From a virus, in IMG/VR virus record IMGVR_UViG_3300029893_000085, positions 1 to 20,376 of that record: DNA of 20,376 bases, one strand, 5' to 3'. The position numbers and the translations under genes are program-made. The notes under the pieces were generated by a model that saw only the letters and a list, made by a program, of their open reading frames with translations, was not told the DNA's origin and searched no databases. Of this stretch, positions 11,027 to 20,376 are shown piece by piece (the first letter of the stretch is position 1; every line of letters begins with the position of its first letter).

Positions 11027-11623
11027 TCAGTTCCGAATCGCTACCAGACGGGAGCGCGGGAACTTACGCGAGGTCTGCTGCTGGCTGTCCCGGTTCCGGG
11101 CTATGGGTTTCGTCACCCTCTCCCAGTGTTCCTTGATCTCCTCCGCCAGCTTGCGGTCCCGCTTCAACGCCCCGGTGAATACAGCTTCCAGCCCCTCGGT
11201 GACGAGATCGACGAAATAGGGCGGCCACAGGGTCTCGGGCACCTTGTAGACGTACCTTGCGTAGAGTTCGTGGGTTTCGTCGTAGTCCGTGGCGACCTTG
11301 TCCTCCAATCTCTCGTAAGGAATGGGGATGTCGTCGCCGTCGGACTCGTAGAGGAAGATTCCGTGCAGGTCTAAGATATCGGACGGAAGCTGCCACAGTT
11401 CTTTGAATTTCAGCCGCGCGGGCGTGGTGACATGGACCAGCTTTGCGTCCTTGGTGGCGAATTTCCAGGGATGCTCGGTCAAAACCCCCTCGATGAAGGG
11501 GTCCCACTCCCTTCCCGCTACCCTGGATTCGGTCTGGGCGGCTGAATCGTCGAACGAGGCTATCGGGTTCGCCCCGATCCGGGTGAGCGCCCGCGAGCAA
11601 ATCTGGAATTTGGTATAGGCCAT
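11027..11623 (-). CDS. Tail tubular protein A / head-tail adaptor (T7 gp11 / P22 gp4-like)
   Basis: The 198-aa protein starts MAYTKFQICSRALTRIGANP and continues with IASFDDSAAQTESRV. This is the conserved beginning of the gp11/gp4 adaptor family (ICSRAL-x-x-IGA-x-x-I-x-SF-x-D). The HPWKFATKDAKL segment and LWQLPSDILDLHG are also typical. It should form the ring between portal and tail nozzle and act before tail assembly. The ATG directly abuts a 15-bp palindrome, and a normal Shine-Dalgarno at proper distance is not obvious; only a GGGG lies immediately before the start. The gene opens the tail block and follows a copy of the four-copy junction motif by 31 nt. Confidence 0.9.
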   Translation of the reverse strand: MAYTKFQICSRALTRIGANPIASFDDSAAQTESRVAGREWDPFIEGVLTEHPWKFATKDAKLVHVTTPARLKFKELWQLPSDILDLHGIFLYESDGDDIPIPYERLEDKVATDYDETHELYARYVYKVPETLWPPYFVDLVTEGLEAVFTGALKRDRKLAEEIKEHWERVTKPIARNRDSQQQTSRKFPRSRLVAIRN

Positions 11624-16314: not shown

Positions 16315-17885
16315 GCGGCCCCCTGAGCGGCGGCGACGGCGGACATGGCGGCAATGGCCTGCTCGATCTGTTTCGATTCGAGCCGGGTCCTGACCAGCTT
16401 GGGCTCGATGCCCATCTTCTGAGCCAACCATCTCCCGTATTCCCCGGAATTGATGATGATGGCGGTCTGTTGCGGACCTTGAGTGGCGAGCATCATTTCC
16501 ATGTATCGCTGGTGTCTCAGGATTTCATCCTGCGCCTGCGCCCGGGTGATGGGAGCCAGCGGTTTGATGCGGATGATCCGGCCATCGATGGCGGGGAGCT
16601 TGAACGCGCCTTGCTTCACCCGGATGTAGGCGACCCTCTTGACGACTTGGAACAGAAGCTCGTTGACCAATCGGTTGTACGGCCCCGCGCGTCTCCGGGC
16701 GCGGTTGGCCGTCCTTTCCAAGACCTCGGTCGCGCTCATGGGGGTCTTGTCGGGCGTCCCCAAGTCATCGCCGAAGAAAATCTGTTTGATGGACTGTTGC
16801 AGGTCGGCAATCACGATCTCAGCGATATTGAATCCGGCGTCTTTGATGTCGAGTCGTTCGAGTCCCTTGGACCCCGGAGCTTTCGGGATGATGGTCCGGG
16901 GCTCGATCCGCACGGTGTCGAGATTGAGAACCCCGTCGTCCTCGGCCTGCCACACGCCGGAGATTGCAAGGTCGGCGTTCTCCAACACGAACTGTTTCGT
17001 GAGGTTCAGGGTCTTGATGTCCGGGAGAGCAATCATCGCCGGGCCTCTTCCGAGTACTTCCCCCGCGACCCGTGTGAACGAGAAGTCGATGTACGGCTTC
17101 GACCCGTCGCCGGTGTATCGCCCGGATTTGATCTTCTGCTTTTCCTTGGGAGCGAATACGCAGTAGTCCCAGGTCTCCGTACCCCTCTCTTCCCAATTCC
17201 TCTGCACGCCCTCCACGACCTCGATCTTCTTTTCGGGGTAGTCCGCGATGCAGTCGGAGAGTTCCTTGCCGAAGGTCCCGTCGGGCCAGATGACGGGAAG
17301 GTCCCCTGCCCTCACTGTCCTCGGACGGAAGATGGCATCGATAGTGTCGTGGGGGCCGGTGTCGGGGCAGATTTCCGGTAACGGAACGGCCCGGAACCTG
17401 ACGGGCTCCAAGGCGTCCCCCTCTTCGGGGAGAAGGAACCCGGTTCCGATCCCCCAGTCCATCAGAGCCTCATGAGCTTCGTTTCTGAAATTCGAGTTAT
17501 TGACCGTCGTGATGATATCTTCGGTGATCGGAGATAGAAGTCGATTCAGGTCCTCTTTCTGGTTCTCCGGGAATTCAGGACCGGCCGTCAATTCAAACGG
17601 CTTCGCGTCCACCGGCCACACGTCATCGAGCATTTGAGAAGCAAGGTCTTGAAGCGCGGCGGGAGCGGTGGAATCGAACAGGTTGTCGGTGTCGGGCCTT
17701 TCGGTTCCCCGCGAGGAATAGGGCCTCTCCCTCAGGGGGAGGACGTACTCATAACACTCGTCGATGATCGGCTCGGCCAATTGTCTCCGGTCCTTCGCCC
17801 GCTTGTAGCGGCGAAGAAAGGCGTCAAGCTCCTTGTCGTCCGAGAAGGAGCCCGGAGACTCGACCGTGTTGCCGTATTCGGCCAT
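16311..17885 (-). CDS. Portal (head-tail connector) protein
   Basis: The 524-aa protein starts MAEYGNTVESPGSFSDDKEL. It shows the features of the podovirus head-to-tail connecting family: a conserved helix with RRYKRAKDRRQLAEPIIDEC, then YEYVLPLRERPY, DNLFDSTAPAALQDLASQML, an aspartate-rich LLSPITEDIITTVNNSNFRN and DWGIGTGFLLPEEGD. The C-terminal region holds RTANRARRRAGPYNRLVNEL and a Gln/Ala-rich tail. The 12-fold ring forms the DNA entry gate and docks the terminase. The ATG overlaps the stop of an 11-codon micro-ORF (TGATG), and GAGG lies 5 nt upstream within that micro-ORF. Length is in the usual range. Confidence 0.92.
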   Translation of the reverse strand: MAEYGNTVESPGSFSDDKELDAFLRRYKRAKDRRQLAEPIIDECYEYVLPLRERPYSSRGTERPDTDNLFDSTAPAALQDLASQMLDDVWPVDAKPFELTAGPEFPENQKEDLNRLLSPITEDIITTVNNSNFRNEAHEALMDWGIGTGFLLPEEGDALEPVRFRAVPLPEICPDTGPHDTIDAIFRPRTVRAGDLPVIWPDGTFGKELSDCIADYPEKKIEVVEGVQRNWEERGTETWDYCVFAPKEKQKIKSGRYTGDGSKPYIDFSFTRVAGEVLGRGPAMIALPDIKTLNLTKQFVLENADLAISGVWQAEDDGVLNLDTVRIEPRTIIPKAPGSKGLERLDIKDAGFNIAEIVIADLQQSIKQIFFGDDLGTPDKTPMSATEVLERTANRARRRAGPYNRLVNELLFQVVKRVAYIRVKQGAFKLPAIDGRIIRIKPLAPITRAQAQDEILRHQRYMEMMLATQGPQQTAIIINSGEYGRWLAQKMGIEPKLVRTRLESKQIEQAIAAMSAVAAAQGAA

Positions 17886-17920
17886 CAGTACCTCTTGATG
17901 GGTTTCTTTTTCTTCGGCAT
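17885..17920 (-). CDS. 11-codon basic micro-ORF MPKKKKPIKRY between the 57-aa gene and portal
   Basis: The product is MPKKKKPIKRY. The start overlaps the previous stop by one base (TGATG), and the stop overlaps the portal ATG by one base (TGATG). The last codons supply the portal ribosome-binding site (GAGG, 5 nt before the ATG). This could be a coupling relay that carries ribosomes into the portal gene, or a real micropeptide. I cannot decide between these from the sequence. Confidence 0.4.
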   Translation of the reverse strand: MPKKKKPIKRY

Positions 17921-18093
17921 CAGTGGACCATCAGAATGACTTCGCCCTTCTCGTCGATCGTGAAGGGGAACCCGTAGGGAATGAGCCACACGCCCGCTTT
18001 GGTGATCACGCGCAGGTGATCCTGCTGCGGAGCCACGACCGCCGTGCGGTTGGTCGGTAAAGCGGGATAGGCGGCGAGTTTCTGGAAGTTCAT
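17920..18093 (-). CDS. Small hypothetical phage protein (57 aa)
   Basis: The 57-aa product, too short for common ORF cut-offs, starts MNFQKLAAYPALPTNRTAVV and ends IDEKGEVILMVH. The start overlaps the previous stop as ATGA, and the stop overlaps the next micro-ORF (TGATG). The second half, HLRVITKAGVWLIPYGFPFT, is beta-strand rich and looks like a compact folded unit. No enzymatic motif is visible. The location between the large terminase and the portal and the perfect overlap chain support coding; it may be a minor packaging or portal-associated protein. Confidence 0.65.
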   Translation of the reverse strand: MNFQKLAAYPALPTNRTAVVAPQQDHLRVITKAGVWLIPYGFPFTIDEKGEVILMVH

Positions 18094-18317
18094 CCGCCCA
18101 ACAGCGAGGGGAATCCCAACTCGCTTCCTTCCGGGGCTATGAGAGAACGGATGCCCCTTCGGCCCCGACGAATGGCGGCTTCCTCTTCGGCCTGCTGGGC
18201 CTTCAACTTCTCTTGCTCGGCTTTGGCATTGGCCTCGATCGCCGACCGATCCGGCATCGGCGGCGGCTTGGGTGGCCCGGGAGGCCCGGAGAAGATGGCT
18301 TTGAATACTCTGCCCAT
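18090..18317 (-). CDS. Small proline/charged phage protein between terminase and portal
   Basis: The 75-aa product starts MGRVFKAIFSGPPGPPKPPP, followed by a charged helical segment (AIEANAKAEQEKLKAQQAEE) and an RRGRRGIRSLIAPEGSE turn. A Gly/Pro-rich N-terminus, an Ala/Gln/Glu coiled stretch and a basic RGRRG motif are the usual traits of a small protein family in the same slot of many podovirus genomes. The function is unknown. The gene lies 14 nt after the large terminase stop and about 33 nt downstream of a junction motif, so it may open the portal transcription unit. No clear Shine-Dalgarno is seen before the ATG. Confidence 0.75.
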   Translation of the reverse strand: MGRVFKAIFSGPPGPPKPPPMPDRSAIEANAKAEQEKLKAQQAEEEAAIRRGRRGIRSLIAPEGSELGFPSLLGG

Positions 18318-18331
18318 TGGCCGAGATTAGG

Positions 18332-19843
18332 TTAGCCCCTCGCTTTCCGCACAGGCCATGACCGCCGCTTGAACACCGAAGGGGGCGGGGGCGCTTGACG
18401 GACCTTCGGAGGTTTGACCCCCCGGTTCAAAAGGGACCGCCCCTCTCCCCCGCCGATCATGAGGTATTGAAGGGCGTCGGCAATATGGGAGAACCGGTCC
18501 TTTTCCGGCGTGTCGGAATACCTTTCCCCCGAGACATGCAACCTCCGATATCGGTATCCACCCCCCAAGGCCGCTTTCAGCATGGTGCAGGACTGAGAAA
18601 CCAGTATCCTCGGTTTCCCGTCCGCCATCTGTGAGAGGGCTTCCTTGACGGCGTTAATACGAACACTGACATCGTTCGTGGGCGCGGGCAGAATCATCAA
18701 TCCCTCGGCGCGGACCATCAGGAACGGCGAGATATCGTCGGCTTCGGCCAAGTGTTCCCCCGCGGGGTCTCCGAAGATGGCGAACTTGTGTCCTGGGAAT
18801 GTAGAAGCAAGGTGGGTCTTGAGCAGTCTTGAGAATGCTCTGGCCCCCATGTCGTTGGCGATCAATTCCGAAAGGATCAGCCAGCGCCCGAAAACATGCT
18901 GTCCAAAAACCGCCGCGGGACTTCTTCCGAAGTCCAGCCCCACCATGATCGCAATTCCGGGCACGGGCTCTAAGACCGATTTCGCCGCATGGACCTCGTC
19001 CCGGTACTCCGGGAACACGGGCTTTCCTGCCGACAACTGGCCGGGCTTGTTGAGGACATTGACCCGTATCCACGACAGGGATTTGCCCCCGACAAGATTC
19101 TCGTAATACCCATCGGGGAGCCACTTGATGTTCTCGGCCCGAGGATTGGGAACGTAGCTTCCCACGTTCCCTTGGCTGTCCCGGACCTCGAACATGGCCG
19201 GCGGCTGCATGAAAAATTTCCAGCTATCGGGCTTCGTCAGCCTTCTCCGTTCATCCTCCGTGATTCCATCGGGCATGGGAGCTTGACCCGACATGATTGC
19301 AATCCAGTGCGCCTCCGAGGGCGCATTCGTGTCCAGGATCATCATGGGGACCGTGCAGCCCCCGTCTTTCTTGGCCGGGTATCTTCCCAGCCGCCCGTCC
19401 GCATCGTCCACGATGTCCCTGAGTATCTCCCGCCCCTCGTTGAACCAGATGTCCGAGATTTCGGCACTCAACAGCTTCTTGCGGTCGTTCTCGTCGTCCA
19501 GGGCCAGAAAGACAACTTCCCAGTCCAGGCCGGGCTTGACGATCCGGTGCTCCAGGGGACGGGACCTCTTGATGGTCCCGAACTCGTTCTCGGGGAAAAC
19601 CCGCTCCCAGGTTTTGAGTGTGGTCCGAATCAAATCGTCATAGGTATTCCGAACCACGTAAGTCCGCCGTCTCCGAACCCCATCCGGTCCCGGTTTCTGA
19701 ATTTGCGCGGCGTTGAGGATCAACTTGATGCAGCAGCAATGCGACTTCCCCGACCCCCACGGACCCTGGATGACGTTCACCCGCGCCCGGCTCATCAGGA
19801 AATTGTAGAGAACAGCCCCATCCGGCTCGTAGTCGATCTTCAC
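18332..19843 (-). CDS. terL: Terminase large subunit
   Basis: The protein has 503 aa from a GTG start at 19843; the codon overlaps the stop of a micro-ORF as GTGA. Residues 27-34 (GPWGSGKS) form the Walker A motif of the packaging ATPase. IWFNEG (132-137) is a Walker B variant in which Asn replaces the usual Asp before the catalytic Glu, as seen in related podovirus terminases. The C-terminal half has an RNase H-like nuclease with aspartates in VGLDFG (near residue 300), FGDPAG and SHIADALQY. It cuts concatemers and drives DNA into the prohead through the portal encoded downstream. The C-terminal codons contain a junction motif copy (RSWPVRK). Confidence 0.95.
   Translation of the reverse strand: MKIDYEPDGAVLYNFLMSRARVNVIQGPWGSGKSHCCCIKLILNAAQIQKPGPDGVRRRRTYVVRNTYDDLIRTTLKTWERVFPENEFGTIKRSRPLEHRIVKPGLDWEVVFLALDDENDRKKLLSAEISDIWFNEGREILRDIVDDADGRLGRYPAKKDGGCTVPMMILDTNAPSEAHWIAIMSGQAPMPDGITEDERRRLTKPDSWKFFMQPPAMFEVRDSQGNVGSYVPNPRAENIKWLPDGYYENLVGGKSLSWIRVNVLNKPGQLSAGKPVFPEYRDEVHAAKSVLEPVPGIAIMVGLDFGRSPAAVFGQHVFGRWLILSELIANDMGARAFSRLLKTHLASTFPGHKFAIFGDPAGEHLAEADDISPFLMVRAEGLMILPAPTNDVSVRINAVKEALSQMADGKPRILVSQSCTMLKAALGGGYRYRRLHVSGERYSDTPEKDRFSHIADALQYLMIGGGEGRSLLNRGVKPPKVRQAPPPPSVFKRRSWPVRKARG
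18350..18362 (-). promoter_or_regulatory. Four-copy junction motif, copy 4 (candidate phage promoter before the portal module)
   Basis: The minus strand reads GTCATGGCCTGTG within the last codons of the large terminase gene, about 33 nt upstream of the 75-aa gene ATG. The three bases after the core (CGG) match copy 3. The location is at the junction between the packaging and portal modules. A promoter role is inferred. Confidence 0.6.
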
Positions 19844-19893
19844 TTCTTCGGCATCTCCGCGTGCTTGAAAAATCCATCAATGTGCTTCTTCAT
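19840..19893 (-). CDS. 17-codon micro-ORF coupled to the large terminase
   Basis: The product is 17 aa and starts MKKHIDGFFKHAE. Its start overlaps the stop of an upstream 106-aa ORF as ATGA and its stop overlaps the terminase GTG as GTGA. GGAG lies inside it about 11 nt before the terminase start. It may serve only to deliver ribosomes to the GTG start, since that start has no well-spaced site of its own. It is low confidence as a functional peptide. Confidence 0.35.
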   Translation of the reverse strand: MKKHIDGFFKHAEMPKK

Positions 19894-20210
19894 CGTGCGC
19901 CCGGCTCTTGATGCCTCGCCCCCACCGTCACCCGCAAAACCGGTTCGTCGTAATTTTCTTCCCACGCCTCGGCCCCATCAATCAGACGGTACCGAACCCA
20001 CCGCACCCCCGGCGCCCTAAAATTTTTTGATGCCCCGAACACATTCTCACCAGCGAAACAATCCCAGGCGCAGGCGCGACACCTAAAATAAAACCCCGCG
20101 CGCCAAAGGGGACGCGAGCGCGCCCGTTCTCGTTTTTTAACCCCACCCCCTCGTTTCCGCTCGTCCCGATTTTCGCCGCGCCATTTTCCATAATGTCTAT
20201 TATGCGACAT
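19890..20210 (-). CDS. Doubtful 106-aa ORF in the spacer between the terminase genes
   Basis: The frame starts MSHNRHYGKWRGENRDERKR at 20210, 6 nt after the stop of the probable small terminase, and ends in an ATGA overlap with the 17-codon ORF. It is basic at the N-terminus, has a CRACAWDC cysteine cluster and ends with YRLIDGAEAWEENYDEPVLR. I do not recognise it. Evidence against coding: hairpins with T-runs on both strands lie across the middle, the base composition is patchy with A/T tracts, and another frame is open over the same stretch. The cysteine cluster and the overlaps keep it as a possibility. If it is not a gene, this is a ~320-nt spacer. Confidence 0.35.
   Translation of the reverse strand: MSHNRHYGKWRGENRDERKRGGGVKKRERARSRPLWRAGFYFRCRACAWDCFAGENVFGASKNFRAPGVRWVRYRLIDGAEAWEENYDEPVLRVTVGARHQEPGAR
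20084..20138. terminator. Bidirectional terminator-like hairpins in the terminase spacer
   Basis: On the minus strand, GCGCGC arms (20098-20103 and 20118-20123) surround a 14-nt loop and are followed by GGGG and then TTTTATTTTA. On the plus strand, GCGAG (20114-20118) can pair with CTCGT (20129-20133, one G-T pair) around a 10-nt loop, followed by a run of T to 20138. Both are modest hairpins with T-rich tails. They could mark a transcript end between the small and large terminase genes, or be chance features of a GC-rich sequence. Confidence 0.3.
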
Positions 20211-20216
20211 CGTATC

Positions 20217-20376
20217 TCATTGATTCGATTGAGTATCGTCGCTCTTGACATCGATGGTAACTGGCTGCGCAGCGCTATCCGCTTCACGGCTAGGAGCGAT
20301 GATATTGATCTGAATGCCGGATGCAGCGCCGCGCGCACCGTCGCCGGCGGGCTTAACCCCGTGCACAGCTAGAATG
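20217..20376 (-). CDS. C-terminus of probable terminase small subunit (partial, 5' end outside window)
   Basis: The last 52 codons of a gene that enters from the right edge are visible, ending in TGA at 20217. The sequence HGVKPAGDGARGAASGIQIN followed by IIAPSREADSAAQPVTID resembles the C-terminal tails of phage small terminase subunits, which often carry a G-(V/I)-Q-I-N-I segment used in contacting the large subunit or portal. The DNA-binding N-terminal domain is outside the window, so the call rests on the tail and on the place just before the large terminase. An alternative is another packaging-module protein. Confidence 0.55.
   Translation of the reverse strand, partial: ILAVHGVKPAGDGARGAASGIQINIIAPSREADSAAQPVTIDVKSDDTQSNQ

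Follow-up and report, generated by a model that had tools for sequence, protein, structure and literature searches.

A conserved two-block DNA element after the small terminase gene and a likely packaging initiation site in the terminase spacer of a 20,376-bp virus record

The window, by which the whole 20,376-bp virus record is meant throughout, carries its late genes on the − strand. They include the end of terS, terL, a T7-type head-tail connector (PF12236) and a capsid protein (PF19821), and tail and other virion proteins are also encoded among them. The features in and around the spacer between the two terminase genes are as follows.

20217..20375, − strand: C-terminal part of terS, 52 codons, frame open to the end of the record
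20216..19844, − strand: TerS-TerL spacer, 373 nt
20132..20151, − strand: E1, a pair of G-runs and then an A-run at 20138..20133
20077..20102, − strand: E2, diverged in sequence, 36 nt from the start of the A-run
19890..20006, − strand: probable small gene of 38 codons with a GTG start, the 3′ part of a 106-aa frame (+7.5 bits)
19840..19893, − strand: 17-codon ORF, coding-like (+8.1 bits, a score attained by 0.24% of the off-frame stretches)
18332..19843, − strand: terL, GTG start, matching PHROG phrog_2, terminase large subunit (3e-17)

The terS gene is 5′-truncated by the end of the record. Its remaining part is similar to the TerS of L011, the nearest relative, with agreement in both frame and place (E=8e-4 and 0.0033), and PHROG phrog_2538 (terminase small subunit) is matched by the TerS proteins of L011, L204, L215 and Pelagibacter phage EXVC031P (OQ414635). 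The window TerL shares 56% identity with its L011 counterpart and 48% with that of EXVC031P. A preliminary description of this DNA had pointed out a spacer of about 320 nt: the spacer is real, but its length is 373 nt, and 323 nt is the distance to the 17-codon ORF. The A/T tracts mentioned there are present, and so are the overlaps of the 17-codon ORF with the 38-codon gene (ATGA at 19893..19890) and with terL (GTGA at 19843..19840). The GTG start of terL also agrees with the homologues, which start within a few residues of it; as for the ribosome site, said to be poorly placed, a GGAG occurs 11 nt upstream. Just 3′ of terS, at 20189-20204, there is a perfect palindrome with 6-bp arms, CATAAT-GTCT-ATTATG; arms of a similar kind are also present downstream of terS in L002 and L204 (CATAAT/ATTAT) and in L027 (CCATAA/TTATGG).

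The 106-aa frame, regarded as doubtful from the beginning, occupies 20210..19890 on the − strand. It does exist as an open frame, but scored as a whole (107 codons) it gives −11 bits, as compared with at least +29 bits in all 177 real 107-codon stretches. Codons 1-68 have a negative coding score throughout, whereas codons 69-106 reach +7.5 bits, a value that none of the off-frame 38-codon stretches taken from the late genes attains; only 2% of real 38-codon stretches score as low. These split scores indicate that the frame is composed of a non-coding 5′ part joined to a probable 38-codon gene. Conservation of the 106-aa product at the amino-acid level was looked for, and no homologue was found; with non-coding statistics and only the last 38 codons coding-like, the 106-aa protein as a single gene was rejected. 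It was also found that the + strand of the window (1-20376) has many long open frames, the longest of 415 aa, running opposite the genes, so that an open frame of 106 aa is unremarkable in this sequence. The 38-codon gene and the 17-codon ORF, which form a chain into terL by their overlaps, can be regarded as ordinary small genes.

The spacer had further been supposed to carry terminator-like hairpins on both strands and to be possibly a device that limits terminase output. Hairpin-plus-T signals, however, number three in 2.9 kb versus 3.0 expected from shuffled sequence, and only one of them lies inside the spacer, on the + strand; an intrinsic terminator pair in the spacer was rejected because the signals are at chance level. 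The limiting device receives no positive support from these terminators, nor from the stop/start overlap before terL, since an upstream gene whose stop overlaps the terL start is common among the annotated relatives.

A different result was obtained by comparing the regions that follow terS among the relatives, where a G-run plus an A-run (E1) recurs. E1 was found within 170 nt after terS in 31 of the 39 TerL-derived loci with a clear TerS, as against 7 of 1430 same-strand and 7 of 1508 other-strand control windows; in resampled sequence, a mean of 1.9 of the 39 loci (at most 7) carried it. Among the 78 TerS-derived loci, 51 have the strict E1 pattern, and in several others a near variant is seen by eye. 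From 120 TerS loci, 110 passed the requirement for flank length and a tolerant E1 rule, and these reduced to 58 non-redundant sequences, one of which was too short for the next search. Motif discovery in the 100 nt after E1 of the remaining 57 yielded a second block, E2 (consensus CacaCAtTattntcnnaaAAgGtt), with a log-likelihood of 447 (55-62 in shuffles). E2 exceeds 8 bits in 51 of the 57 sequences, and its distance from the start of the A-run is nearly invariable (median 36 nt, sd 0.75 nt), while the linker between the two blocks is hardly conserved. In 34 loci, the element occurs at a median of 40 nt after terS despite a median terS-terL gap of 1715 nt, which ties the element to terS. EXVC031P is the best cultured relative; its complete genome carries the pair once, after its TerS, at 11,622..11,561 of the record on the − strand, unannotated there, and, unlike in the window, several small genes lie between its terS and terL. 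The element is thus a single-copy (in EXVC031P), non-coding stretch of cis DNA conserved among relatives, and this comparison of the spacer in related phages brought out a fixed-spacing element beside terS.

Some variation exists around the two blocks. In a marine subgroup (L156, L157, L160, L168, L171, L172, L182 and L015), a matching C-run follows E1 and a conserved CTCGACCCCGCCC stretch precedes E2. In L108-L111, L114 and L117, a C-run (CCCCACCCCCAAAAACTA) replaces the G-run of E1 at the same distance to E2.

For the window itself, a model built from 51 marine sequences was used, which leaves out the window, L011, L002, L093, L052, L156 and L174; in leave-one-out trials within the marine set, the exact place was ranked first in only 34 of 51. 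The best match of this model over both strands of the 20 kb falls inside the spacer, at 20151..20075, with a score of 8.8 versus 3.6 for the next separate place. The window A-run starts at 20138, 78 nt after terS. E1 is clear by eye, and the best-scoring place of E2 is also at 36 nt, but with a low score (−5.1). When soil sequences were added to the model, the site was still first (11.8 versus 8.9), while under a soil-only model it was not. As the simple E1 pattern alone has a 21% chance of occurring in such spacers, we relied on the composite model only. A second, simpler G-run/A-run, GGGGCATCAAAAAA, is present in the same spacer at 20036-20023 (− strand) and is followed by TTTTAGGGCGCC.

The weak E2, the modest margin and the frequency expected of the simple pattern leave some room for a chance match, the family having the element and this phage having its copy elsewhere or having lost it. 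We regard this as improbable: when the spacer was resampled 2000 times by a Markov model, only 18 resamples reached the window score (about 1% by chance), the match has the place, the strand and the terS distance that would be expected, and the relatives L011 and L204 carry the element at the expected place.

A search with closer TerL proteins added loci from soil, temperate and MAG sources. Applied to both strands of whole loci, the marine model, built without the window, gave the post-terS site its top rank in 14 of 20 soil/temperate loci, the window included; it does not rank the element first in L012, L216, L224 and L242, and in L002 its top match is elsewhere in the spacer. After soil sequences were added, leave-one-out trials ranked the element first in all 13 loci chosen, with scores from 6.0 to 31.3. 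These 13 positions came from 19 soil/temperate loci with TerS, minus L002, L012, L216, L224, L242 and L244, the last being a near-copy of L215; the near-copies L215/L244 and L212/L213 were never used for each other. Because the positions had been pre-chosen as the best marine-model match after terS, this trial is partly circular for the place, though not for the rank in the whole locus. By eye, the soil/temperate relatives L211, L214, L220 and L005 show a third recurring block (~GAATTTTTTCTGrTnCTGGAAAAT) about 65-100 nt after the E1 A-run, and a loose counterpart of it is seen in the window near 20060-20030.

The 17 loci without the detected TerS family gave no clear match, with no score above 4.8 on the gene strand or above 9.6 on the opposite one; in L212, which has the TerS, the opposite strand scores 13.5, so that a score of about 10 leaves some doubt when taken alone. 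These 17 were named by hand among loci whose upstream sequence was long enough. BcepC6B (L004) and Pseudoalteromonas phage Y3 (L009) are among them, although their TerS proteins match the marine TerS profile (8.6e-31 and 1.8e-4); "without" refers to a second profile, which did not test them. BcepC6B has a related TerS and yet no element after terS, which counts against a TerS site. In MEP301, which has another TerS and no gap after terS, the element was not found adjoining terS, and the best marine-model match (15.4) is at 1894 on the + strand, away from terS. Over the loci as a whole, the element is associated with its cognate TerS, as an association by inheritance only.

A terminase recognition site would be expected to have just these properties: conserved, single-copy and non-coding, with a fixed spacing and inheritance together with terS. 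We therefore consider it likely that the spacer carries a packaging initiation site recognised by TerS, and the earlier guess of a cos/pac-like site gains support from the conserved element, present beside terS and in this spacer as well. TerS is known to bind pac or cos sites (PMC7672466). In the proposed mechanism, E1 and E2, 36 bp apart, would be bound as double-stranded DNA by a TerS oligomer; TerS, encoded immediately upstream of the element, would bring TerL, which would cut near the candidate site and then package. It is from the sequences that we infer TerS binding, cutting near the element, the packaging direction and a preference for pac over cos.

Other functions can be assigned to such an element. 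A transcription signal for the genes after terS, be it a late promoter or a regulatory site, would suit an intergenic position upstream of late genes, and some E2 variants are A/T-rich. The rigid 36-nt spacing and the G-run are, however, unlike the sigma-70 pattern, the element is single-copy in EXVC031P and lies within a co-directional gene row, and the only site in a promoter scan of 17500-20376 was outside the spacer and at chance level; a transcription signal is accordingly quite improbable. A replication origin, or another single-copy site standing beside terS by coincidence, would likewise fit the single copy, the A/T tracts and the intergenic position. Over many gene orders, however, the element stays with terS and the TerS family and not with replication genes, which makes this reading very unlikely. 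The least credible explanation is a structured RNA or cruciform acting at the element. A stem around E1 appears convincing by eye in several relatives, with paired arms in, for example, L049 and L029, but the mean z over the 58 sequences is 0.2, only 7 of the 58 are below p 0.05, the window gives p 0.29, and no Rfam match was found in the window or in 20 relatives; the explanation is thereby largely refuted. An attachment site is not suggested by the isolate-derived records L213 and L241, which carry the element inside the contig and not at its end.

Within the packaging-site reading, a pac (headful) mode is somewhat favoured over cos, though not firmly. At least 5 of the 10 near-complete contigs examined have directly overlapping ends (23-127 nt) away from the element, and four more near-complete contigs have 20-mers common to both ends. 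These ends and the circular EXVC031P record lean towards headful packaging; circular assemblies fit permuted, terminally redundant DNA, but also joined ends. The genome of MEP301, a relative with another TerS, was also reported to assemble as a circle, and its authors considered it to be circularly permuted or to have terminal repeats (PMC8024684). The alternative form differs in the cut: staggered nicks would be made at E1, and the virion would have cohesive ends there. Contig starts do cluster close to the element: 6 of 55 fall in the 80 nt upstream of E2, and the 200 nt beyond have none. L069 starts inside E1, L178 ends at the terS stop, and to the eye E1 is similar to the G4A3 in the cohesive end of P2. 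Such starts do not prove cos, because contigs break elsewhere too; moreover, their position varies between 11 and 77 nt before E2, the near-complete contigs close up away from the element, EXVC031P is recorded as circular, and the marine model does not pick the annotated cos sites of P2 and HP1. A cos site is regarded as the less likely of the two.

The annotated pac of Salmonella phage P22 is not picked by the marine model, either. It is a short and asymmetric stretch of DNA, linked to terS, at which packaging starts (PMC9611059), as is proposed for the present element, but it is 22 bp long and located in terS (PMC9611059; 4-25 in the record annotation), whereas the present element is about 80 bp, has two blocks and lies outside terS. 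The P2 cohesive end shares with E1 a G-run followed by A's. The cos sites of P2, HP1 and PaP3 are terminase-recognised, but they lack an E2 at 36 nt; the PaP3 TerS is described as binding its cos DNA (PMC7672466), and in the PaP3 record, which has no annotated cos, the best marine-model match is 11.2 at 1342. The pac region of SPP1, where several contact points are described as flanking the cut (PMC9611059), is comparable by this description.

A packaging signal of a new layout can be put forward tentatively. A TerS ring may recognise, from a single face of the DNA, two blocks whose A-tracts are ~52-54 bp (five helical turns) apart. The signal and terS may be inherited together as one movable cassette among ocean, soil and temperate podophages, whatever the position of terL. 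No earlier description of the element was found in the literature searched, which comprised titles and the starts of abstracts and covered few subscription papers. For most phages, the way in which TerS recognises its DNA is not yet clear (PMC9611059). With a sharply delimited candidate site and its natural variants in dozens of phages, including a cultured one, both TerS-DNA recognition and the mode of packaging in a group of marine phages could be tested directly.
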